Positions 3,873 to 18,140 of a DNA stretch of 64,000 nucleotides are shown here, piece by piece. The stretch comes from Opitutaceae bacterium (GTDB taxonomy: Bacteria; Verrucomicrobiota; Verrucomicrobiia; Opitutales; Opitutaceae): contig PLXS01000009.1 of the NCBI GenBank assembly GCA_003151515.1, positions 1-64,000 on the forward strand, in the 5' to 3' direction. Positions within the stretch are counted from its first letter, which is position 1; every line of letters begins with the position of its first letter. A program made the position numbers and the translations under genes. The notes below the pieces were generated by a model. The model was not told the DNA's origin and made no database searches. It was given only the letters and a program-made list of their open reading frames with translations.

Positions 3873-5327
3873 TCACGCTCCGAAAGTCTTCCGAACCGCT
3901 TCAGCCATTTTAGCAATATCCACGGGAGTTGTGCGCTGAGCGGGTACGACGTATAGTCTGAACATCTGGAGACGCATACGCGCAAAACAGCCGACAATGC
4001 TGTGAGGAATATCGACCATAGACTTCGGTTCAGGTCCTCCGTTTTTCATGAACACCTTGATCAGTTCATCCCGGGTTTCGGACGGTTCCTTATGCATCTG
4101 TGCGGCTGGCACCAGAGGCCCTCGCTTTTCAAATTCAATCGGTTTGGGTGAGCAAACGAGAAAATGCCCCGGCTTAAGTCGAAAGCGTCTAGCCAAGCCA
4201 GGAATGTGAGCCTTGCACCTCTCGTAAAAAAGCGTCTCATCTGCATTTCGGCCGCCCTTCTCGATGAGCACGGTGGTCTCCCAGAGCATCTTCGGGGGCC
4301 TGCGTGTTTGAATGCAAGTCGCGAGATCACGCATCAGGCTTTGCTTGGGTTCTGCGGCAGCCTTTTGAATTACCGAGTCTACAAAAGCATCAGTAAATGT
4401 CGCCAGCCGCTTGGGATCGGTCGCCATCGCCTTGATATCTGTTCCATTGCGCGGAATGCCATATAGCCCATCGTTGCGGGCACGCCTTAGCAGCTGTCGG
4501 CAGGCTTCTTCAAACCCATATGTTGTCTTATGATAGTATACTGCCCGGTGCATAAAAAATCTAGCCATCAAGAAATGCTCGGCTGCAGCAAGTGCCTTTT
4601 CATCGACTCCGACCATCCCGTCTGGGCTTATTCGAATGTTGTTGAGTAGATAATTACTATCGATCTCGCCGAAAGGCACACCAGCTGCTCGCCCGTCCCG
4701 GATCAGATAGTCCATCCTATCCATGTCCAATGTGCTGTGGATCAACTTGCTCAGTTGAAGATTGGAGGCCGACGTCCTCGAAAATATTTCGCCGATTTCA
4801 ACCGCGCGATCTCTTCCGCCAATAGCATCTCTAACATCCCGTTGTCCCTCTACTATTAGCCGGCCAAATTCTTCATGATTCGGATAGCCATCCTCGCTTT
4901 TGTCGATGATGGAACCGGTACTCTTCGGTTCTAGAGCCTCTTCGGTGAGCACTACCGAATCGACCATCTCCATTAAATGGGAATACGGATAATGCCCGAT
5001 GTCATGGAGCAAAGCAGCGAGTCTCAAGTTCTCGACGTCATGCTTCCTCAGTCTGAAATGGTCTTTGCCGATCGCATCCGTAATTCTCGTCATGATACCA
5101 AGGACCCCTAAACTATGGGCAAACCTGGTATGAGTGGCATTCGGATAGGTGAGATGACCCATCTGAAGCTGCTTCAGCTGCCGTAGCCGCTGAAATGTAG
5201 CAGTATTTATTACGGACCGTTCAAGGGGACTGAGATGTATATCCCCATGAATACTGTCGACGACAAGACAATCACGCGAGGTGGTGCGCTTTGAGCGCGC
5301 TGATGGCCGCCTTGATTTCGTCCGCAC
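3873..5327 (-). CDS. HD-domain phosphohydrolase, YwfO/dNTPase-like
   Basis: HD-superfamily metal-dependent hydrolase related to dGTPases and B. subtilis YwfO. Visible ligands, numbered from the GTG at 5327: His71 in RFAHSLGV, the HD pair at 108-109 in LLHDIGHYPYSH, and the downstream Asp in STLDMDRMDYLIRD. The product is 484 aa, close to the family. The frame is open further upstream but lies inside the YwgA-like gene there; GTG 5327 gives a 56-base overlap, so translation is probably coupled. Likely role: hydrolysis of deoxynucleotides or a related phosphoester; dNTP depletion is a known defence strategy, though nothing here proves it. Its pairing with a YwgA-like partner is the ywfO-ywgA arrangement known in Bacillus. 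Confidence 0.85.
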   Translation of the reverse strand: MRTKSRRPSARSKRTTSRDCLVVDSIHGDIHLSPLERSVINTATFQRLRQLKQLQMGHLTYPNATHTRFAHSLGVLGIMTRITDAIGKDHFRLRKHDVENLRLAALLHDIGHYPYSHLMEMVDSVVLTEEALEPKSTGSIIDKSEDGYPNHEEFGRLIVEGQRDVRDAIGGRDRAVEIGEIFSRTSASNLQLSKLIHSTLDMDRMDYLIRDGRAAGVPFGEIDSNYLLNNIRISPDGMVGVDEKALAAAEHFLMARFFMHRAVYYHKTTYGFEEACRQLLRRARNDGLYGIPRNGTDIKAMATDPKRLATFTDAFVDSVIQKAAAEPKQSLMRDLATCIQTRRPPKMLWETTVLIEKGGRNADETLFYERCKAHIPGLARRFRLKPGHFLVCSPKPIEFEKRGPLVPAAQMHKEPSETRDELIKVFMKNGGPEPKSMVDIPHSIVGCFARMRLQMFRLYVVPAQRTTPVDIAKMAEAVRKTFGA

Positions 5328-5763
5328 TGAATATTTTCTTAAAACGCCTAAGTGTTTTCCTAAGGCCCAATACATCATACAGACGACCAGGCTTTTGGTC
5401 GACCAAGAAATGTACGGACGCGACCAACTCCAGCCAACGCGCTCGTTCTGAAGTGTCGCGTTTAGCGACCCAGATCTTCCGCAGTCGTGATATACGGTTT
5501 CTCGATTTTTCATCGAGCTTCCATGAGTGACTCCTTGTGTCAGAATCGGCCATAGCTGCGGCCAACGAGAATACGTCGGCGGTGAGATCCGAACTGTATG
5601 GGCCGCGAATATACCAATGGAAAGGATACCCAAGGTGAACGCCCCTCTGCTGAATGAGGTATACAACCTTCTGCGTAATTAACCTATCTTCGAAGGTCGC
5701 CGTAGAAACGGGAAGGCCTCCATCTTCCAGGGCCAACCTGAGCGCAATTTGCTGTCGGTTCAT
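5272..5763 (-). CDS. YwgA-like protein, partner of the HD hydrolase
   Basis: 163-aa protein from ATG 5763. The N-terminal half, with DRLITQKVVYLIQQRG then YPFHWYIRGPYSSDLTADV, matches the pattern of YwgA and phage-associated DUF4065-type proteins (FxLQKxxYL...NxxYGPYS). It is the first gene of a two-gene transcript; its stop at 5272 lies inside the HD gene's reading frame. The biochemical role is unknown; in related pairs it probably binds or regulates the HD enzyme. Confidence 0.65.
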   Translation of the reverse strand: MNRQQIALRLALEDGGLPVSTATFEDRLITQKVVYLIQQRGVHLGYPFHWYIRGPYSSDLTADVFSLAAAMADSDTRSHSWKLDEKSRNRISRLRKIWVAKRDTSERARWLELVASVHFLVDQKPGRLYDVLGLRKTLRRFKKIFSADEIKAAISALKAHHLA

Positions 5764-7809: not shown

Positions 7810-8949
7810 ATGCAAACCATATCTACTTCTTCCGATATCGTTGCGGATTCCGCCTCTGGTGGAACCTCCTGCGGGGGCAATCCCGCCAAATGGTTCGTCT
7901 CTGTTGACGATCGTCGCCTCCCTGTGCCTAGCCGGAATGTGAAAGTTTCGGTAATTCGCGCGCAGGCTGGTATCCCTGATGACCGCGTGCTTGTCCGCGA
8001 TCACAATTCACCGGACGACGAGGTGCTAGACGATAGCGGTGACATCGACTGCGCCCGAGGGAATGTCCTTTACACCGAAGACCGGCGAGATGCGCGGGCG
8101 CCGACTCGTTGCGTGGCTTCCGCGAAGATTGCCTTCTCGGTTGACGACAGGGTCGAGGAGACTCTCAACCATGGTCAGACAGGGGCCACGTTGCTGGATC
8201 TCTTTGGCCTCGACCGCGTCAAGGCTCTCTTTCGCGATCATGAGTCGCAGGTGGATGAGTCTGTTAAGCAAGACGACCCGATCCTGTTTGAGGACGGACC
8301 GGTTTTTTATACCCGCGGACAAATTATCGAGGTTGGAATTATCATCATCGTCAACAGCCGCCGCTTCGGCCGGGAGGAGGGCGTACGTCCTGTAATGACA
8401 GCCCGCGAGATCGCCGGACTGATTTCGGCCAAGCCGGAAGACTTCGACACCTATGCGGGCCCGGTCGCGAAGGGCAAGCCGCTGCCTCCCGATGAGCCGA
8501 TAAAGCTGAAGGACTGCGACGTGTTCACTGTGGTTAAGAAGGAGGTTACGGGCGGCTTCCTCGTTGCTCGAATCGACCTGGAGCTGGGAAAACTCAAGGC
8601 CGGCGGTACCAACGTGGACTATATCGAGAAGCCGACGCCAGTCGTTATCTACCGGGAGCTGCCGATTCGCGAAGGGCTGGGAATTGAGAAGACTGATGTA
8701 CTTGTTCCGGTTCCCACTGGATATCCTGGTCAGCACCTCGATGGGGCGTTCATACCCGACGGATCTCCCCTCATCGGCCGTGTGGTTGGCAAAGCTGCTG
8801 GTGCCACGTTGTCCGTCGATAACCGGACGTGGCGTCTAATGAGCTATCATCCACACACAGGGGGCGGTTTCCCTGAGTGGAACCCAAATTTCCATGGGTT
8901 TCATACTTACATTGACGCACTCATCGCTTGGCTCACGGGTTGGAAATGA
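7810..8949 (+). CDS. multi-ubiquitin-like protein fused to a prokaryotic E2-like domain
   Basis: 379-aa protein. I see three beta-grasp (multiubiquitin-type) repeats at about 27-92, 103-170 and 173-249. Each opens with a strand such as KWFVSVDDR, KIAFSVDDR or IIIIVNSRR and closes with a GNVLYTEDR, GPVFYTRGQ or CDVFTVVKK type strand. The third ends in Gly-Gly (248-249). From about 250 to 379 comes a UBC/E2-like domain of the prokaryotic E type: VLVPVPTGYPGQHLDGAFIP, then RTWRLMSYHPH and GFPEWNPNFHGFHTYIDALIAWL. No cysteine follows residue 236, so a classical E2 thioester is not possible in this domain. The gene overlaps the E1 gene by ATGA. Role: supplies and transfers a ubiquitin-like modifier, probably in phage defence (inference). 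Confidence 0.85.
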   Translation: MQTISTSSDIVADSASGGTSCGGNPAKWFVSVDDRRLPVPSRNVKVSVIRAQAGIPDDRVLVRDHNSPDDEVLDDSGDIDCARGNVLYTEDRRDARAPTRCVASAKIAFSVDDRVEETLNHGQTGATLLDLFGLDRVKALFRDHESQVDESVKQDDPILFEDGPVFYTRGQIIEVGIIIIVNSRRFGREEGVRPVMTAREIAGLISAKPEDFDTYAGPVAKGKPLPPDEPIKLKDCDVFTVVKKEVTGGFLVARIDLELGKLKAGGTNVDYIEKPTPVVIYRELPIREGLGIEKTDVLVPVPTGYPGQHLDGAFIPDGSPLIGRVVGKAAGATLSVDNRTWRLMSYHPHTGGGFPEWNPNFHGFHTYIDALIAWLTGWK

Positions 8950-10457
8950 AATCCCGTATTCAACTAGACGGGGGTCGGCAATGCATCATTCGGATCATGC
9001 CGACCGAATTGTCGTCGCTAAGCAGGTTCCTCCGCAAACGGTATCCTGACCGGGAGTGGGGCACGCTGATGTCTTGCGGCGTTCGTCGCACGAGCTGGGG
9101 TCTTGCAGCTAGCGTATCGGGGTTACTGCTTCCCAAACCAGGCGAGCTTGACCGGTCTAGCCCATTGTTTGTTGCACGTAGCCATTATCTCGGACGTCTC
9201 AAAGAGACAACTGAACGCGACAATCTGTCGGCCGTAGTAGTGCATTCTCATCCGCAGGGATGCGCGACATGCCCGAGTACTTTGGACGATGAAATGGATC
9301 TCTATTGCGCCAGCTTGTATGGCGCCCGCCCGTATCTCAGCCTAATTTTTTCGTGGAACGCAGGAGGAGATCTGCAGTTTTCAGGCCGAGCCTACGATCG
9401 TGGACGTTGGATGCCGGTGGTGACCCTACTTTCTCCCGGTGACACCCTCGGGCGTTGGGAATCAGGAATTGTCGAGCAACCTGTGGAGTCCGACGATCGG
9501 GGCGAAGACGGCGAACGTCGGAATGAACGACTATTCGGATTAATTGGACAACGCTCGGCACGCCGAGTCGCGGCAGCGCGCATCGGAATTGTCGGTTGCA
9601 GCGGCACAGGCTCACCGGCCCTAGAGTTGGCGATTAGAGCAGGCTTTAAACATCTCGTTGCGGTGGATCCCGAGCGTGAGGCTTACTCGAATCTCGAAAG
9701 AATGCATGGCTCAAAGGCGGAGGATTTTATCTCAGGCAGAGTCCCACCATATAAAGTCGAATCCATGCAACGCATGGCCAAGGAAATTGATCCATCGGCT
9801 GAAATTACCTCCATTGTTGGAAACATTCTCGATGATGTAGTATTGGACCAACTCCTCAGATGCGACGTAGTCCTCAACGCCACCGACACTCATCATTCTC
9901 GCGCCTTTCTAAGTCACCTTGCCACGCACTATCTCGTTCCGTGCTTTGACGTTGGCGTCGCCATGGACGGTGAGCGCGGAAAGGTAACGTTGCAGAATAT
10001 CGAGATTACGCGTTTCTGGCCAGGCGATCCCTGTGCATTTTGTCGGCGCAAGATTGTTCCCAACATATTAAGCTGGGAGTTGATGGCAGACGAAGAACGC
10101 GTCGCTCGACAAGAAGCGGCAAAAATCGCCGCGGCTGAAGGAGGCAAGCCAGACATGTATTGGGGTGGGCGCCCGAGACAGCTTCACACAGTGGGCTATC
10201 TCACGACTATGGCAGGAAGCCTCGCAATGGGTTACATTGTCGGCGCAGTCACTGGCACATTTAAGATGCCGCACCAGCGATTCCAATTCGATCCATCTGT
10301 TGAGCGATTTGGATTTGCACCATATGCCGAGGAGAGCCGCGTGGCGGAATGCCAATGCGGAAAATACGTCGGATTTGCGGATGCCGCATTACACGCACGA
10401 ACTGTTGGACGTCCTGCGCATTGGCCCCGTGCAATGTTGCTTTTCCCTCTCAGCTAA
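8946..10457 (+). CDS. JAB/JAMM protease fused to ThiF/E1-like adenylyltransferase
   Basis: 503-aa protein from ATG 8946, which overlaps the previous stop (ATGA). The N-terminal JAMM domain has EWGTL (Glu37) and the metal motif HSHP with Ser111 and Asp114 (H-x-H-x8-S-x2-D). From about 190 an E1/ThiF Rossmann domain carries GIVGCSGTGS (214-223), Asp241, SNLERM and the NATDTHHSR region. CxxC in DPCAFC and CxC in ECQCG may bind zinc. The JAB half would trim or remove the modifier and the E1 half would adenylate its C-terminal glycine. A JAB-E1 fusion beside multiubiquitin/E2 genes is a known predicted bacterial operon type. No separate E3-like gene is seen. Confidence 0.9.
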   Translation: MKSRIQLDGGRQCIIRIMPTELSSLSRFLRKRYPDREWGTLMSCGVRRTSWGLAASVSGLLLPKPGELDRSSPLFVARSHYLGRLKETTERDNLSAVVVHSHPQGCATCPSTLDDEMDLYCASLYGARPYLSLIFSWNAGGDLQFSGRAYDRGRWMPVVTLLSPGDTLGRWESGIVEQPVESDDRGEDGERRNERLFGLIGQRSARRVAAARIGIVGCSGTGSPALELAIRAGFKHLVAVDPEREAYSNLERMHGSKAEDFISGRVPPYKVESMQRMAKEIDPSAEITSIVGNILDDVVLDQLLRCDVVLNATDTHHSRAFLSHLATHYLVPCFDVGVAMDGERGKVTLQNIEITRFWPGDPCAFCRRKIVPNILSWELMADEERVARQEAAKIAAAEGGKPDMYWGGRPRQLHTVGYLTTMAGSLAMGYIVGAVTGTFKMPHQRFQFDPSVERFGFAPYAEESRVAECQCGKYVGFADAALHARTVGRPAHWPRAMLLFPLS

Positions 10458-10481: not shown

Positions 10482-11261
10482 CTATCTAAGCAGGCTCTGT
10501 GCCTGGAATTCGACGAGGAGCGTGTCCACAAAAGGTAAGGCCTTTGCATCTCTCTCTGCAAAATAGCCGTACATTCGGTTTGGAATCCATGTTCCATAGA
10601 AGTGGGCCCTGAAACTGTCGAGCAGCATAATCGGGTACATTTTCGGGAAAACAACTCGACCATCCTCGTAAACATGTCGGTACGTCGGCATAGTGTCCGT
10701 GTCGACGCCCATCTCATCACGTAGCCACTTGGCGAACATCTTTCCTTCGGAAATATCGGGAAGCATCGTGTCCGGAATGGTGTAGCCTTTTTCCTCCATC
10801 GGAGCAATCAGGCCGATAATGAGCTCGTTAAGAATGGAAAAATGGGTGTGCGGTATGGCGGCACGGTTGGCGATGTAGCGTCTGAGGTGGTACGGCAGAT
10901 TTCCTCCCGGAATCTTGCCGGACATCCACTCGCGCACCCACTTGGACACCATGACCGCGAACCGGGGCGAAAGCCATTGTCCAAGGTTAATCGCAATATC
11001 GGGGTGTATCCAAGTGCCTTGTAATTGGGGGTTTCCACCTTTTGTGAGGATGACCAGGTCCGATATGGGAATCCCCATATCGGAGGAAAGTGCGTCTAAA
11101 AAGGCCTTGGTGTTGGCAAGCCTGTAATAGTCGGCAAAGTTCTTCCCACTCGCCTGACACAACGCGGTCGCATTTATGTAGCCATCGGTGATGCGCTGAG
11201 GGATAGATAACCCGTCAACTTCATGGCTGATAAGAGATAAAATCATTTGATGTTGAAGCAT
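10482..11261 (-). CDS. KilA-N domain protein
   Basis: 259-aa protein from ATG 11261. The KilA-N DNA-binding domain covers roughly residues 15-110: DGYINATALCQASGKNFADY, then the LANTKAFLDAL helix, GTWIHPDIAINLGQWLSPRF and VSKWVREWMSG. These are the family hallmarks found in phage antirepressors and Fungal APSES relatives. The C-terminal half (MEEKGYTIPDTMLPDI onward) ends in a KxFxxWLRxE-type segment seen in phage Rha/KilA C-domains. It is convergent with the E1 gene and divergent from the next pair. A phage-derived regulator or defence component. Confidence 0.9.
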   Translation of the reverse strand: MLQHQMILSLISHEVDGLSIPQRITDGYINATALCQASGKNFADYYRLANTKAFLDALSSDMGIPISDLVILTKGGNPQLQGTWIHPDIAINLGQWLSPRFAVMVSKWVREWMSGKIPGGNLPYHLRRYIANRAAIPHTHFSILNELIIGLIAPMEEKGYTIPDTMLPDISEGKMFAKWLRDEMGVDTDTMPTYRHVYEDGRVVFPKMYPIMLLDSFRAHFYGTWIPNRMYGYFAERDAKALPFVDTLLVEFQAQSLLR

Positions 11262-13052: not shown

Positions 13053-13649
13053 TCAGGTTAGGTAACCAAGTTCCCGCAAGACCTCGTTGCGTTTGTCACA
13101 GCCGCGGCAGTTGCCACACGGGTGATTGGATGTGTGACAGGAGTGAGTCCATGCGATGATTGTTTCGGGGACCGCGCTACGCTGGACAAGTTGGACGGCA
13201 GAAAAATTTATTGCCGGCGCAATTACTTTGATGTGGCCCTCTTGGGCCTGAAGAACGGCGTTGATAGCCGTTACAAACAACTCACTGCCGTCGCCATGTA
13301 GGCGATCGCTTGCCACAGTTCCGATTAGCAGGTTTTGTTTACTTGCAGAAATCATCTTCATGGCCGCCACTGTAATCAGGAATTGGTTTCGATAGGGCCA
13401 CCATTCTGGACTTTTCGCCGCTTCAATTTGTTGGGCGCCGACCATATTCCCTGTCCCCAAAGCTGAAGCATCGATCGTGATCGGCTCAAAGGTTATTCCA
13501 AGACTTGAGGCAACAGCCGAGGCAGCCTCTTTTTCGGCAATCGCAGCCCTCTGGCCATAGTCTATAAAAATAGCCAACTCAGGTCGTTGCCAAAATGCGA
13601 TTGCCGTCGAATCAATTCCACCCGAAAGCAAGAGAGCAGTCCCAGCCAT
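13053..13649 (-). CDS. QueC-like 7-cyano-7-deazaguanine synthase family enzyme
   Basis: 198-aa protein. The PP-loop ATP pyrophosphatase motif SGGIDST is at residues 9-15, and a C-terminal zinc site has Cys171, 178, 181 and 184 in SCHTSNHPCGNCRGCDKR. This is the QueC layout, slightly shorter than housekeeping QueC (about 220-230 aa). The start ATG 13649 is fused to the stop of the upstream gene (TGATG), so translation is coupled; ATG 13655 is an alternative. No queD, queE or folE is nearby, so it is unlikely to serve queuosine synthesis. QueC-like enzymes occur in defence operons (type IV CBASS, Qat), where they may act on nucleobases or protein termini. Confidence 0.88.
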   Translation of the reverse strand: MAGTALLLSGGIDSTAIAFWQRPELAIFIDYGQRAAIAEKEAASAVASSLGITFEPITIDASALGTGNMVGAQQIEAAKSPEWWPYRNQFLITVAAMKMISASKQNLLIGTVASDRLHGDGSELFVTAINAVLQAQEGHIKVIAPAINFSAVQLVQRSAVPETIIAWTHSCHTSNHPCGNCRGCDKRNEVLRELGYLT

Positions 13650-14887
13650 CAGCATTTGGGGGCGGTAGCGGCCCAAATTGCCTTGTAGACCGCGTTTCCT
13701 AGGTCGCCTGTTATTAGACAACCGGTGCCGACAAGCATGGTATCAGCATTCTCCGTTGCCGGTTCCGACCGGAATCCAATGACTGGGATTCCGTGGTTCC
13801 TTGCGTATCCTAACTCGAATATTGTTCCCGGATCGCTGCCATCGAGCAATGCGAGAACGGCCTGGCATCCAAGCATACCTTTGAGGTCATCCTGGGCCAC
13901 ATTATGTAACGGGTCCCGCGCTAGGCCAACGTCGTGATAAGGCGAAAAAACCTTTACGCCCATGTCCTGAAGAATGTGACGCACATCATTTAACAACCAC
14001 AATTGAGCCACCGAAAAAAAAGGGCTCGCTAGGTATATTGTGGGTATCCCCGTAGCGGAATCCAATCGCTGTGCCTTGGCTTCAACCTCCGACGGATCCT
14101 TCGGCAGCGGGAAATCTCGTGTCGCACACCACAATGCGGTCGATAGAGAAGCGGCGTTCGCTGCTGTGACCGGATCCGTTTTCTTTACGCCCCATTCTAG
14201 AGCGAAAATCGCGCTAAATACATCGCCAGAACCAACTAAGTAGGTTTCCTTGGCATCGAATACTGGAATATAGTGTTCGGTCCCGTCGTAGAGCAGCAAA
14301 GCGCCTCGAGGCCCGTCTTTAACCACCACCACTTCGGCGGTCTCCGAGGCCTGGATAGTCTTTGCTGCCTCCCCAATATCGATCTTGCCGGAAAGACGCG
14401 TGGCTTCTTGTCGGTTGAGAACAATGGCCAAATGCTCAGCTGAGGAGCCCAATTCCGCAAAATGAGCGGGCGATAGTGGCGACTGGGGATCGAATATTAC
14501 GCGGGTTCCGTGCGCGACACATTTGGCGTTGACCATTCCGAATTGGAGCACGACGGGAGCCGACACGCTGATCGTCGGAAGCTGAGAGGCAGGCTCCGGC
14601 TGGAGGTAGCCACCGGAAAGAGGATGGAGATATGAAAATTCATGACCTATCTCTGTTACCGTTGGAACAACCGCGAATCCATATAACTTGGCTTTAATCC
14701 GAGTATGACGCTCCAATTCCGGTGTGAGTGGAGAATGGAAGGCGACATTCGCTTCACACCCTGAGCTAGCAATCGCGCATGCTGCGCGTAGGCCCGATCC
14801 AAAGATTTCAGAGGTCCTTGGAAATATGCACTGTTCGGCGTACGTGCCGCCGACAACTATGATACCCAGTGGATCCGCACCTTGCAT
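13649..14887 (-). CDS. PfkB-type kinase fused to nucleoside 2-deoxyribosyltransferase
   Basis: 412-aa fusion from ATG 14887. The N-terminal 1-265 is ribokinase/PfkB-like: IIVVGGTYAEQ strand, VILNRQEA-type region, and GSGDVFSA at 219-226 with the catalytic Asp222 of the GxGD motif. The C-terminal 280-412 is a nucleoside 2-deoxyribosyltransferase: IYLASPFF (284-291), the LALLDGSDPGT loop and catalytic Glu358 in TIFELGYA, then GIPVIGF. NDTs swap or hydrolyse the base of a deoxynucleoside; PfkB kinases phosphorylate sugars or nucleosides. It overlaps the preceding gene by 31 bases and the next by TGATG. In context it probably produces or processes a modified nucleobase or nucleotide. Confidence 0.85.
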   Translation of the reverse strand: MQGADPLGIIVVGGTYAEQCIFPRTSEIFGSGLRAACAIASSGCEANVAFHSPLTPELERHTRIKAKLYGFAVVPTVTEIGHEFSYLHPLSGGYLQPEPASQLPTISVSAPVVLQFGMVNAKCVAHGTRVIFDPQSPLSPAHFAELGSSAEHLAIVLNRQEATRLSGKIDIGEAAKTIQASETAEVVVVKDGPRGALLLYDGTEHYIPVFDAKETYLVGSGDVFSAIFALEWGVKKTDPVTAANAASLSTALWCATRDFPLPKDPSEVEAKAQRLDSATGIPTIYLASPFFSVAQLWLLNDVRHILQDMGVKVFSPYHDVGLARDPLHNVAQDDLKGMLGCQAVLALLDGSDPGTIFELGYARNHGIPVIGFRSEPATENADTMLVGTGCLITGDLGNAVYKAIWAATAPKC

Positions 14888-15225
14888 AGGCCCGCTTCGA
14901 CCTTGAGGACAACGGCGCGGTATTTGTTCCCCTCGCTGATGCAGTCGATGATCCGAAGGACTTCGGGGGAAGTGATCGTACCCACAAGCTTCCCTTGAAA
15001 AAGTGCAACGAGCGTTACGGTGCCGCCGGTGGAATCTGTCTCGACATCTAATTCGTCGCCTAGCTTTAGGCGCTTGAGCTGCTCTCGCACCGGACTCGAC
15101 AGCGCAGTTTCAACCAAAAGGTCCTTGCAACTGGACACGCCTCCAGGTGATCCCCCACCGCCTGATGATGATGATCCCGGGGTTGAAGTGTATCCGCCGC
15201 CTCTGCGTCTGCCTCCGCCTGCCAT
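14857..15225 (-). CDS. small protein with Gly-rich disordered N-terminus
   Basis: 122-aa protein from ATG 15225. Residues 2-30 are nearly all Gly, Ser, Arg and Pro (MAGGGRRRGGG..., then SSSSGGGGSPGG), clearly unstructured. Residues about 35-122 form a compact, beta-rich domain (VREQLKRLKLGDELDV, LVALFQGKLVGTI, YRAVVLKVEAG) without a family I can name; the small barrel resembles HIRAN-type folds in strand pattern. It is second in a four-gene operon with base-handling enzymes. A flexible glycine tail is typical of acceptors for covalent modification, so it may be the target of the operon's chemistry (inference). Confidence 0.65.
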   Translation of the reverse strand: MAGGGRRRGGGYTSTPGSSSSGGGGSPGGVSSCKDLLVETALSSPVREQLKRLKLGDELDVETDSTGGTVTLVALFQGKLVGTITSPEVLRIIDCISEGNKYRAVVLKVEAGLCKVRIHWVS

Positions 15226-15266
15226 AGTGTGGTGAGAGAAGTGAAAGGTTCACCCTATGTCGAGTG

Positions 15267-16016
15267 CTATGCGCGGCGGGATAGGTGGGGTGCTTGTTGG
15301 AAATAGCTTCGTCCCATATTATGTGAATCCTTCATCACCCTCCAGAGTAGGACGTCGAGCCGGCGCGGTTCTTCGCCAAGGCCCCGCGCAAATTCAAGAA
15401 ACCGTAGTTCGAGGTCGCGATATTTCCTCTGGATCACGGATTCCGTGCCTGAGAAAAAGCCTGCTATTACCCCAGCACGAAAGACGTGAATATCGATAAT
15501 TGCGACTGCGTTTGAATGGAGCCAGTTGCGGGTTATCCACGACGCTGTTTTCCAACCAACGCCAGTGTATGAAAGGAGCCAATCACGGAATGCCCGATCA
15601 TCCTGAGGTGCTGTCTCCGAATCCAGGCGTTTGAGGGCTGCCGCCAGATATCTAGCTTTCATCTGCGGATAGCGGTAAAGCGCCGGGCGCGCCTTACCTG
15701 GGATTGTTAATGGAACCTTAAGGATACTCGTGAACGCATTCGAATCACGTTCGGCATTGGGCCTGAGGAGTCCTGACGATTGGAGAGCGACAAACGCAGC
15801 TTGAGCTACCTCAGAAGTAACACCGTGGCCGCCCAGAAGGCAGGCACTCAATTCTTCATGAAGCGATTTGCCGCTTCGATAATCCAAATATGCATAAATG
15901 TCCTCGTTATGTGCATACCATAATTGTGCCTTCCAAAAAGCAGGAGTGAAAGGACTCGCAGTTGATCCCCAGCGCACCCCTGACATTACATGCTCATCAG
16001 TATCGGGTAACGACAT
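15267..16016 (-). CDS. OGG-fold HhH-GPD DNA glycosylase-like protein
   Basis: 249-aa protein from ATG 16016, with GAAAGG just upstream; a GTG at 16061 is a less likely start. The helix-hairpin-helix GVGWKTASWI carries the glycosylase lysine (Lys156), and AIIDIHV gives Asp175 and His177, matching OGG1's Lys249, Asp268 and His270. The lyase-competent triad is therefore kept. The N-terminal half is unlike housekeeping MutY/Nth enzymes and there is no iron-sulphur cysteine cluster. OGG-fold proteins co-occur with QueC-like ones in type IV CBASS. It leads the minus-strand operon 16016 to 13053. Confidence 0.82.
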   Translation of the reverse strand: MSLPDTDEHVMSGVRWGSTASPFTPAFWKAQLWYAHNEDIYAYLDYRSGKSLHEELSACLLGGHGVTSEVAQAAFVALQSSGLLRPNAERDSNAFTSILKVPLTIPGKARPALYRYPQMKARYLAAALKRLDSETAPQDDRAFRDWLLSYTGVGWKTASWITRNWLHSNAVAIIDIHVFRAGVIAGFFSGTESVIQRKYRDLELRFLEFARGLGEEPRRLDVLLWRVMKDSHNMGRSYFQQAPHLSRRA

Positions 16017-16068
16017 CGACCTTTCTTGATCGAAACGTACATCGAAAATTGTTTGAGGCACGAATTAG

Positions 16069-16097
16069 GTTGCATAGCCATATGCATATTATGCAAC
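16069..16097. promoter_or_regulatory. palindromic operator between OGG operon and XRE gene
   Basis: GTTGCATA (16069-16076) and TATGCAAC (16090-16097) are perfect 8-bp arms around 13 bases that contain their own perfect palindrome ATATGCATAT (16080-16089). It lies in the divergent gap between the OGG-operon start and the XRE start at 16106. Very likely the binding site of the XRE protein, controlling both directions. Confidence 0.7.
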
Positions 16098-16105
16098 TAA
16101 AATGC

Positions 16106-16423
16106 ATGAATAGCCTCAGCATTCCGTCTGACCTGGGACCAAGCCTTAAGAAGGCCATGGTCGCCCTCGAATTGACTCAGACGCAGCTGGGGAAAAAGGT
16201 CGGCCTCAGCCAATCCCAAGTGAGTCGCATCGTGGCCGGAAAGATCCGACGTCCACCAAAGGTCCTAGATCGAATCTGCGAAGTAGCGAAACTCCCATTG
16301 AGCGGATCCGAAAAATTTGACGAGCAAGCGTTCTTGGACGCGGTTAAGGCCCTGATAAGGGCAAATCCGCAGAAACAAGTGGCTATCCGACGAGCATTCG
16401 ACGCGATCCACGGGTTGGTTTAG
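16106..16423 (+). CDS. XRE-family HTH regulator, divergent from the OGG-QueC operon
   Basis: About 105 aa from ATG 16106 (MNSLSIPSDLG); ATG 16091 is possible but lies inside the operator. Classic HTH: VALELTQTQLGKKVGLSQSQ followed by VSRIVAGKIRRP, with the Q-x3-G and SxVSRIxxG residues in place. The C-terminal part is helical and may dimerise. Only a few bases separate the operator from the start, so the transcript may have a very short leader. Predicted autorepressor of itself and the base-handling operon. Confidence 0.85.
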   Translation: MNSLSIPSDLGPSLKKAMVALELTQTQLGKKVGLSQSQVSRIVAGKIRRPPKVLDRICEVAKLPLSGSEKFDEQAFLDAVKALIRANPQKQVAIRRAFDAIHGLV

Positions 16424-16697: not shown

Positions 16698-18140
16698 TTA
16701 GGGCCCGGAAGTGGCGACATTTGCGAGGTCATGGTCACTGGTCGACATTTGATATTTCAACTGCGGCGCAGTTGTGCGGATCCATTCGGTGATGCGGGTG
16801 TATCCTTCACGCAATTGATCGGCCCAGCCGCCCTTTATAGAGACTTGTAGCTCCTTCTGGCGCCCCGATTCGACGAGCCTTCCGGCGATGAGAAGGAACC
16901 ATCGTCGGCCTCTCTTGGCCTCGGTGTGCTTTTGCGGGACGATGAAGCGGACGAAGAGTGTCCAGAGGTTGTAGACGAGCAGTAGGAGCCGGGCGGCCAG
17001 TTCGGTGGTCGCCCTCGACTTGGCGCAAAATCCGCTGAACCCCCACTGGTTCTTCAGTTCGTCGAACACGTTCTCGGTGTCCGCCCGCTTGCGGTACAGT
17101 TCCTGGATCTGCCAGGGGTTGACGCTCTCGGGCAGGTTGGTCACGTACACGGCGAACTCGTGCTTGTTGCGGTCCCAGAACTCGGCATTGCTCGCGGCCC
17201 GGATCACGCCCAGGAGAGTCCGCGCAAAGATGACCCGTCGGGGGCTCTTCCAGCCGGTGAGCTGGATGAGGCCCTCGGCCATCTGGCATGACTCGTAGCC
17301 GGCCGATCCCTGCCAGTCATCCTCACGCACCCGGCAGAGGGCCGAGCGCACCAGGTTCGTCAGCTTCAGCTTGAACAGGTACTTCGGCCTGTCGGGGGCC
17401 TCCTCGTGCCAGGTCATGATCGCATCATGGCCGAGCCCCAGGTCGCCTCGGTTGAGCCAGATCTTGCGCTCGCCGAGCCAACGCTGGGCGTCGTGCATCG
17501 CTTCGTGCCACTCGGTGGCCGTCACCGTATCGCCGGCACGGAACCGGTATACCGGACAAAGGCGCGTGTGGGCGATGACGCCCAGCAGGGGATGGAAGCT
17601 GCGCCGACCCGGCTTGCCGGGGTTGTACCCGATCTCGGCTCCTTCCTGGTGCCCGTACTTCGGCTGCACCGTGGAATCCCAGTCCATGATGATCGGATCC
17701 GGCAGAGCACGCCACATCGGCTGCACATTGCGGGCGATCCACTCGGCTCCGAGGGCGGGATCCACCGACTTGAAGAACCGCCTCACTGTGTCGTCTCCGA
17801 CCACCGACTCCATGCCGAAGATCTCCGGAATCGTCGGATCCTCCCGCAGGCGCTCAATATGGGAGAACCGGCGTCCGTCCGTTAGGGCCGTCAGCATGAA
17901 GGACTGGAGCACGTCGTAGACCGGAGCCGCGTTGGGGCTCGTCCTCTCGACCGGGCAGTCCGCAGCAAGCTGATCTATAATCCCTATATGCTTCGTATAG
18001 GCTGCCCACGGCACCAGCCCTCCGAATGGCGTCAACGCATCGTTCGTCACCGAAAGTCGCACCCGTCCACCCGGTGTCGGAAATGAGAACTCTCCTTCAC
18101 CCAGCGGGTGAATGGCCTCCGTCTGGCTTTGAGTATCCAT
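16698..18140 (-). CDS. IS1380-family transposase
   Basis: 480-aa DDE transposase. Visible catalytic and family motifs: IIMDWDSTVQPKYGHQEGA (first Asp), the RGDLGLGHDAI segment (second), and YRKRADTENVFDELKNQWGF (the glutamate region, diagnostic of IS1380). Length is normal and no frameshift or stop is seen, so it is probably active. GC is higher than in the island genes around it, fitting a separate origin. It fills the element between the two terminal repeats. Confidence 0.95.
   Translation of the reverse strand: MDTQSQTEAIHPLGEGEFSFPTPGGRVRLSVTNDALTPFGGLVPWAAYTKHIGIIDQLAADCPVERTSPNAAPVYDVLQSFMLTALTDGRRFSHIERLREDPTIPEIFGMESVVGDDTVRRFFKSVDPALGAEWIARNVQPMWRALPDPIIMDWDSTVQPKYGHQEGAEIGYNPGKPGRRSFHPLLGVIAHTRLCPVYRFRAGDTVTATEWHEAMHDAQRWLGERKIWLNRGDLGLGHDAIMTWHEEAPDRPKYLFKLKLTNLVRSALCRVREDDWQGSAGYESCQMAEGLIQLTGWKSPRRVIFARTLLGVIRAASNAEFWDRNKHEFAVYVTNLPESVNPWQIQELYRKRADTENVFDELKNQWGFSGFCAKSRATTELAARLLLLVYNLWTLFVRFIVPQKHTEAKRGRRWFLLIAGRLVESGRQKELQVSIKGGWADQLREGYTRITEWIRTTAPQLKYQMSTSDHDLANVATSGP

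Follow-up and report, generated by a model that had tools for sequence, protein, structure and literature searches.

A four-gene operon at 13053-16016 on the minus strand of a 64,000-nucleotide stretch of DNA from an Opitutaceae bacterium (contig PLXS01000009.1 of assembly GCA_003151515.1; hereafter the window) encodes an OGG-fold protein, a small protein with a glycine-rich N-terminal tail (the Gly-tail protein), a PfkB-type kinase fused to a nucleoside 2-deoxyribosyltransferase (PfkB-NDT), and a QueC-like ligase. This cassette is real and recurrent, is both plasmid-borne and chromosomal, and is most likely a third QueC-family protein-conjugation defense system. We hold with somewhat better than even confidence that it is a mobile immune cassette in which a nucleobase would be joined to the N-terminus of the Gly-tail protein, both the conjugation and the defense function being predicted from sequence comparison. 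In the available text of the reports on the known cases, deazaguanylation is the work of Cap9 and Cap10 in type IV cyclic oligonucleotide-based antiphage signaling systems (CBASS) (PMC11996544), and type IV CBASS is the demonstrated case of protein deazaguanylation, qatABCD a proposed one, with Cap9 modifying Gly2 of an MGGS protein and QatC needing the MGTS end of QatB (PMC13279940).

The four genes were recovered from the open reading frames (ORFs) of the window as tightly packed, same-strand genes, with a gap of 41 bases between the OGG-fold and Gly-tail genes and overlaps of 31 bases (Gly-tail/PfkB-NDT) and 7 bases (PfkB-NDT/QueC-like). This layout agrees with a preliminary description of the stretch, and Pfam bears out its assignments of the OGG-fold, PfkB-NDT and QueC-like domains. 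A divergent helix-turn-helix (HTH) gene beside the operon was absent from that description, and HTH genes related to it adjoin the cassettes of some relatives. PADLOC matches only the QueC-like protein among the four, via a generic model.

Relatives were compared in a set of 100 loci, comprising the window and loci L003-L101 (eight of them plasmid regions), which was recruited by the PfkB-NDT protein and searched with profiles of the cassette parts built from seeds of about a dozen of those loci. The Gly-tail protein is found in 100/100 loci, the QueC-like protein in 92/100 and OGG in 87/100, together with a nitroreductase-like gene in 67/100 and a DNA adenine methylase in 31/100. This wide co-occurrence disposes of the worry, raised in the preliminary description, that the genes might not occur together elsewhere. 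Architecture I (HTH, OGG, Gly-tail, PfkB-NDT, QueC) is that of the window, L003, L015, L048, and L054, while architecture II has Gly-tail, PfkB-NDT, QueC, and usually a nitroreductase, with OGG (often plus the methylase) convergent. Architecture III, the double cassettes (7 loci), combines two Gly-tail/PfkB-NDT pairs with one QueC and then a shared protein, which has an FRG domain where tested (L063); two such pairs served by one QueC are consistent with conjugation. Architecture IV (Gly-tail, PfkB-NDT, PurA-like) forms one clade in the PfkB-NDT tree (support 100), and architecture V, the TIR type (L175, L176, L198, L199), carries PfkB with a decayed NDT, a TIR-TGT protein, OGG, QueC, and a Gly-tailed TIR protein. 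The gene 3' of QueC varies, and can be a nitroreductase, a dGTPase (L180, overlapping QueC), an Mrr nuclease (L181) or an AbiEii-like ATPase (L034); the nitroreductase of L008 is related to SagB peptide dehydrogenases, yet scores under the cut-off of that model. In the PurA-type loci L022, L027, and L089, a small conserved protein of ~100 residues is encoded directly 5' of the Gly-tail gene, and the L022 copy has no Pfam match.

The distribution is patchy. Scanned with a profile, 84,980 species genomes yielded 431 PfkB-NDT relatives at E 1e-3, possibly including NDT-only proteins, of which the best 80 of 431 were examined; within the class of the host, 5/384 genomes have the protein, its own included. 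Plasmids carry it too: 38 records, belonging to Proteobacteria, a cyanobacterium, and haloarchaea, match the protein (15/38 examined), and 36/38 cover at least 80% of the query. A plasmid search with the L176 OGG protein gave 29 records, 27/29 of them also in the PfkB-NDT plasmid list, whereas Cap9 loci, sought on plasmids for comparison of OGG, gave no match. In viral contigs, 7 of 80 loci among the matches listed fit PfkB-NDT over most of the protein, and eight loci match the QueC-like protein, six at 42-53% identity; of those six, the PfkB-NDT search had already found the contigs of five, and the sixth (L182) lies at a contig edge. No L176-type PfkB was found in viral contigs. On a tree of 116 PfkB-NDT proteins, in which the window branch is long and its placement unsure, phylum labels change 9 times over the 82 labeled rows and class labels 17 times; since nine phyla need at least 8 changes, little excess is visible from phylum labels alone. 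Near-identical copies in different families (L011, L071, L074) fit recent transfer or draft-genome contamination. TniB-like transposition genes lie within a few kb of the cassette in L008, L020, L043, L046, L072, and L085, which suggests transposon cargo.

The Gly-tail protein, which matches no Pfam or NCBIfam family, joins a tail that varies in length to a domain of ~80 residues bearing two cysteines. Both cysteines are present in 107/108 aligned domains, a second copy in L040 being without either, and AlphaFold2 models a small beta-rich core with a predicted local distance difference test score (pLDDT) of about 90 or more and a disordered tail at about 50. In the window, the glycine-rich stretch is N-terminal. 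For a census of N-termini, 107 sequences were reduced to 60 clusters at 60% identity, two of them without an ATG, leaving 58, and the ATG was chosen blind to the motif. Gly stands at position 3 in 45/58 clusters when the last ATG is taken and in 41/58 when the first is taken; Ser, Gly, Ala or Thr stands at position 2 in 49/58 and 47/58, respectively. The extreme N-terminus, M-[S/G/A]-G, is conserved although the linker varies. The L201 gene, masked by an overlapping ORF, begins MGGSGGGG. By eye, haloarchaeal Gly-tail proteins (L009, L177, L178) have two tandem domains and ends of the form MGGG, MGGGG or MCGGG. We do not claim a likeness of the barrel domain to HIRAN, for which Pfam gave no consistent family.

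A conserved, disordered N-terminus of this kind resembles the MGGS and MGTS substrates of Cap9 and QatC, so comparison supports a substrate role for the Gly-tail protein and makes it likelier that the base is conjugated to this protein than made free. The same observation bears on a free antimetabolite, in which the base from the QueC-like enzyme would gain deoxyribose from NDT and a phosphate from PfkB, and the resulting analogue would poison phage DNA or act as a signal, with OGG removing it from DNA and the Gly-tail protein serving as scaffold or regulator. These enzymes do suit a base-nucleoside-nucleotide route, the NDT and PfkB active sites are intact, and dGTPase genes recur nearby in 9 loci, but such a route leaves unexplained the conserved N-terminus, the Gly tail on a TIR protein, and the presence of a Gly-tail gene alongside PfkB-NDT at every locus of the set; we consider it unlikely. 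The suggestion in the preliminary description of a separate defense system built on a modified nucleobase is partly supported, in that co-occurrence, plasmids, and neighborhood favor a CD-NTase-free cassette of purine enzymes, but shifts in that the base is likelier protein-conjugated than free.

The conserved residues of the QueC-like ligase and its best PDB match argue for the conjugation reading. Among 93 sequences, SGG and the loop-closing Ser are each kept in 92/92 (the Asp of the loop in 87/92), PxRN in 92/92, and the single base-edge Asp and the four zinc cysteines in 91/91 each. Cap9 (9nto) is the best PDB match, followed by QueC structures (2pg3, 3bl5). The window protein fails the NCBIfam equivalog cut-off for QueC (TIGR00364, 69.6 vs 150.3 bits) and has HGDG where canonical QueC has the substrate motif YPDC. 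Canonical queuosine synthesis was rejected on account of that cut-off and of QueD and QueE not being found in the host genome. In an alignment with Cap9 and QueC, the conserved Asp falls on the residue reported to read the edge of the base, and His takes the place of the stacking Tyr; the base may thus be guanine-like, yet not identical.

Of the eight loci without QueC, seven, all from Bacteroidota, have a PurA-like gene in the same slot, and one (L049) ends at a contig edge. PurA uses GTP to attach an amine to a purine nucleotide, and QueC uses ATP to attach a carboxylated base to an amine. The PurA-like proteins resemble adenylosuccinate synthetase in keeping GDEGKG and GGHQ (6/6 aligned each; AGH after GGHQ in 5/6), but differ in having lost the ATTGRSRR loop, which we take to be the aspartate-binding loop, and the one copy scanned (L022) fails PurA cut-offs, e.g. 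132.7 vs 402. A PurA-like ligase in the QueC slot of a similar cassette, in seven loci of one clade, is in keeping with a reaction linking an amine and a purine-like ring.

The state of the PfkB-NDT active sites points the same way. In the window, PfkB-NDT keeps GSGD and the NDT residues D334/D352/E358, and its PDB matches are to an NDT (6evs, 8.4e-13) and to ribokinases. The PfkB catalytic Asp is kept in 115/116 proteins. The NDT nucleophile Glu is kept in 105/105 single and first copies, and is lost in 7/7 second copies of double cassettes and 3/4 TIR-type copies; two TIR-type copies also keep Asp at position 352, where the alignment is uncertain. Thus, NDT decays where TGT or another intact NDT is at hand, a pattern suggesting that, on the conjugated base, NDT stands in for Cap10/TGT. 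The OGG family keeps its active-site Lys in 86/86 and Asp in 87/87 sequences, and the window protein scores 57 bits against NCBIfam PRK01229, under the cut-off of 183. NDT-like domains are effectors in some retron systems, and this, together with the defense-rich neighborhood, would favor a toxin-like N-glycosidase effector, NDT or OGG, that the Gly-tail protein holds and that QueC/PurA and PfkB regulate. We judge that arrangement improbable, as NDT has decayed in second and most TIR-type copies while PfkB persists, and OGG was not found in eight loci of the PurA-type clade, two of them cut by contig ends.

The TIR type links the cassette to type IV CBASS. Its tails, MGGGSSG (L175, L198), MGGGGGG (L176), and MMGGGGGG (L199), lie on the TIR protein 3' of QueC, which in L176 is a ThsB_TIR protein by Pfam (5e-23); this is a likeness to Thoeris that the window type does not share. 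In the L176 TIR-TGT protein, Pfam matches TGT over 34 residues near the C-terminus, and the sole PDB match is Cap10 (1.1e-5 over 68 residues); those of L198 and L199 are close relatives. The Cap10-type TGT of type IV CBASS therefore has a counterpart in this sister type, and a Gly tail on the TIR protein beside a TIR-TGT that matches only Cap10 argues for protein conjugation. Thirteen plasmid records, mostly from one Rhizobium lineage, carry a TIR protein of this sister type at 76% identity or more. A SLATT protein is encoded downstream of the L176 cassette, and L176:1-11845, an Agrobacterium leguminum Ti-plasmid record, has four annotated TIR proteins, the SLATT protein, and a DarT/macro pair around the cassette. 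The type IV CBASS link drawn in the preliminary description is therefore real but indirect, as a Gly-tailed TIR protein takes the place of the CD-NTase.

OGG occurs in type IV CBASS too. As far as type IV CBASS and qatABCD are set out in the available text of PMC11996544 and PMC13279940, the window cassette shares with the former a QueC-like ligase, a partner whose N-terminus is flexible and contains Gly, and a base-handling partner enzyme, and differs in having PfkB-NDT rather than a CD-NTase and TGT, in another kind of acceptor, and in His-x-Asp for Tyr-x-Asp. No TGT match was found among the nine ORFs of the window region, the sole TGT match of the genome, Tgt, being on another contig. The CD-NTase family PF18144 was found in 15/54 cassette genomes and not in the genome of the window, so CBASS with a hidden CD-NTase was rejected for this genome; the preliminary description had seen no CD-NTase here, and the possibility it left of one always lying just outside fails likewise. 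Like qatABCD, the cassette has a QueC-family enzyme and a partner with a conserved small/Gly motif at the end of a disordered N-tail, but the nine window ORFs scanned include no KAP ATPase (QatA) or TatD (QatD), the QueC-like protein of 200 residues is without QatC-sized extensions, and the partner is a small barrel where QatB is helical.

From these parts we infer a route whose catalytic steps, order, base, and trigger are all conjectural, and in which the nucleotide step and the defense function are predictions. Removal of Met from the Gly-tail protein would leave a small residue and then Gly at its N-terminus. The QueC-like enzyme would adenylate a carboxylated guanine-like base and join it to this N-terminal amine in place of ammonia, after which the NDT domain would add (deoxy)ribose to the conjugated base and the PfkB domain would phosphorylate it, giving a protein with a nucleotide at its tip. 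On infection, the barrel domain and the OGG-fold protein could read or release this tag, and read-out might trigger accessory effectors such as a nitroreductase/SagB-like enzyme, dGTPase, Mrr nuclease, FRG or TIR proteins. A tentative generalization, which we regard as possible rather than probable, is that N-terminal nucleotide writing is swappable throughout, with a Gly-type tail on a barrel protein, TIR protein or CD-NTase, a QueC-like or PurA-like ligase, and a finish by NDT or TGT plus PfkB, such that the active immune molecule would be the (deoxy)nucleotide-bearing protein.

The neighborhood of the cassette is rich in defense genes. In a paired control drawn from 20 of 40 QueD-positive genomes, the closest ORFs outside the cassette, seven at most per genome, were set against the closest ORFs around QueD. 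The cassette side comprised 135 ORFs (137 before two PurA-like ones were removed) and the QueD side 139 (140 before removal of a long ORF of L213). At E 1e-10, PADLOC matched 239 families at the cassette vs 27 at the control, where one protein can match many models, 8/20 genomes are Pseudomonas, cassette-linked HTH genes were kept in, and dGTPase may be a cassette part. Leading cassette-side families include AriA-type ATPases (6), dGTPase (4), capP (3), AbiLi (3), and type I restriction (2), while 24 of 25 control-side families among the matches listed are methyltransferase models with one member each. The enrichment that the preliminary description had put forward as a check is thus present, and it favors the conjugation-based defense reading.

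The same contrast bears on purine salvage. The available text of PMC13329287 (Libby 2026), the one paper with this gene pair among the open-access PMC matches listed, describes a QueC/PfkB-NDT pair as QueC family cluster 4 and suggests purine salvage, with no mention in that text of the Gly-tail protein, OGG, PurA swap or TIR type. The window shares with cluster 4 a QueC-like gene adjoining, and here overlapping, PfkB-NDT (the other loci were recruited that way by construction), nearby HTH genes, and the zinc motif CH(x)5CxxCxGCxK, present as CHTSNHPCGNCRGCDK; for the motif YGQ(x)6E, five residues separate YGQ from an invariant Glu, where the printed motif has six. Ordinary salvage or housekeeping would suit component families that are nucleobase enzymes, but the patchy distribution within the class, the plasmid records, and the defense company make it very improbable.

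Several observations weigh against the conjugation-based defense reading. Position 2 is mostly Ser (33/58) and is Ala in the window, while the residue modified in CBASS is Gly. Three PurA-type Gly-tail proteins begin Met-Lys, from which Met would stay, and that of L027 begins MSKRNP. For the window and some ten further rows, a rule based on ribosome-site scores puts the start close to the domain or within it, so conservation is what supports the tail start in these cases. Where Cap9 has a Tyr stacking on the base, the QueC-like protein has His (HxDG in 83/93). The PADLOC contrast shows company, not function.

The supply of the base also counts here. 7-Carboxy-7-deazaguanine (CDG) is unlikely as the base in four genomes among the 49 named ones, and likewise in that of the window. 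In the latter, which is 92% complete, QueD, QueE, and canonical QueC were undetected, and the cassette's QueC-like protein is the only QueC-family protein found; the earlier statement that no queuosine genes accompany the cassette holds for these three, but Tgt is present, the genome is incomplete, and QueD occurs in 40/49 other named cassette genomes. Of the nine QueD-negative genomes, five have canonical QueC, which shows that the pathway can escape the QueD model and leaves four that count (G435, G448, G449, G471), in which the cassette's protein is the only full-length QueC match. QueE was undetected in these four and the host by a model that detects the E. coli and B. subtilis enzymes and could miss a divergent QueE; Bosea genomes G434 and G466 also have no detected QueE, but have a QueD-family match near 1e-19. 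The missing pathway of the host was not used alone as proof of a non-CDG base, as the genome is incomplete and QueD is present in a relative of the same genus. L014 and the near-identical L044 and L045 encode a queuosine-precursor transporter (VUT) immediately outside the cassette.

Features of the operon and its divergent regulator in the window
Feature	Coordinates	Strand	Basis
OGG-fold (HhH-GPD) N-glycosylase/lyase-like protein, 249 residues	15267..16016	-	Pfam Ogg-HhH 1.9e-11; PDB 3n0u 2.3e-8; Lys/Asp active-site pair kept
Gly-tail protein, 122 residues: disordered N-tail MAGGGRRRGGGYTSTPG, then small barrel-like domain with two conserved Cys	14857..15225	-	Conservation and AlphaFold2
N-terminal tail of Gly-tail protein, residues 1-32; proposed nucleobase conjugation site	15130..15225	-	M-[S/G/A]-G conservation, low pLDDT
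PfkB-type kinase fused to NDT, 412 residues	13649..14887	-	PfkB 6.9e-7 and Nuc_deoxyrib_tr 4.3e-16 in one chain
NDT domain, residues 284-378 of PfkB-NDT	13754..14038	-	PF05014 4.3e-16
QueC-like ATP-dependent ligase, 200 residues	13053..13655	-	PF06508 2e-24; SGGIDS loop, PYRN, Zn cysteines
Divergent HTH regulator, which probably starts at an internal ATG near 16082-16106	15962..16423	+	HTH_31 8.4e-9

Other genes of the window lie around the cassette. A 480-residue ORF (16698-18140, minus strand), a DDE transposase by eye, adjoins the HTH gene. At 7810-10457 on the plus strand, a 379-residue ORF with repeated multiubiquitin domains by eye shares an overlap with the gene of a ThiF (E1) protein, which matches JAB weakly, and multiubiquitin genes with adjoining ThiF are also near the cassette in L012, L013, L022, and L064. 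The C-terminal part of a KilA-N protein (10482-11261, minus strand) matches PADLOC BstA (3.3e-16), and an HD-domain protein (3873-5666, minus strand) resembles dGTPase-type phosphohydrolases by eye; dGTPases recur next to cassette relatives.

If the conjugation reading is correct, the cassette would be a third case of protein conjugation beside type IV CBASS and qatABCD, with hosts ranging from Proteobacteria to haloarchaea and an acceptor, a ligase, and a base-handling enzyme that have each been exchanged in nature. An uncharacterized QueC cluster would gain a function, and the PurA-like enzymes would be predicted to represent a second protein-nucleobase ligase chemistry. Hosts in which a CDG pathway was not detected would make conjugation of a non-CDG base directly testable.

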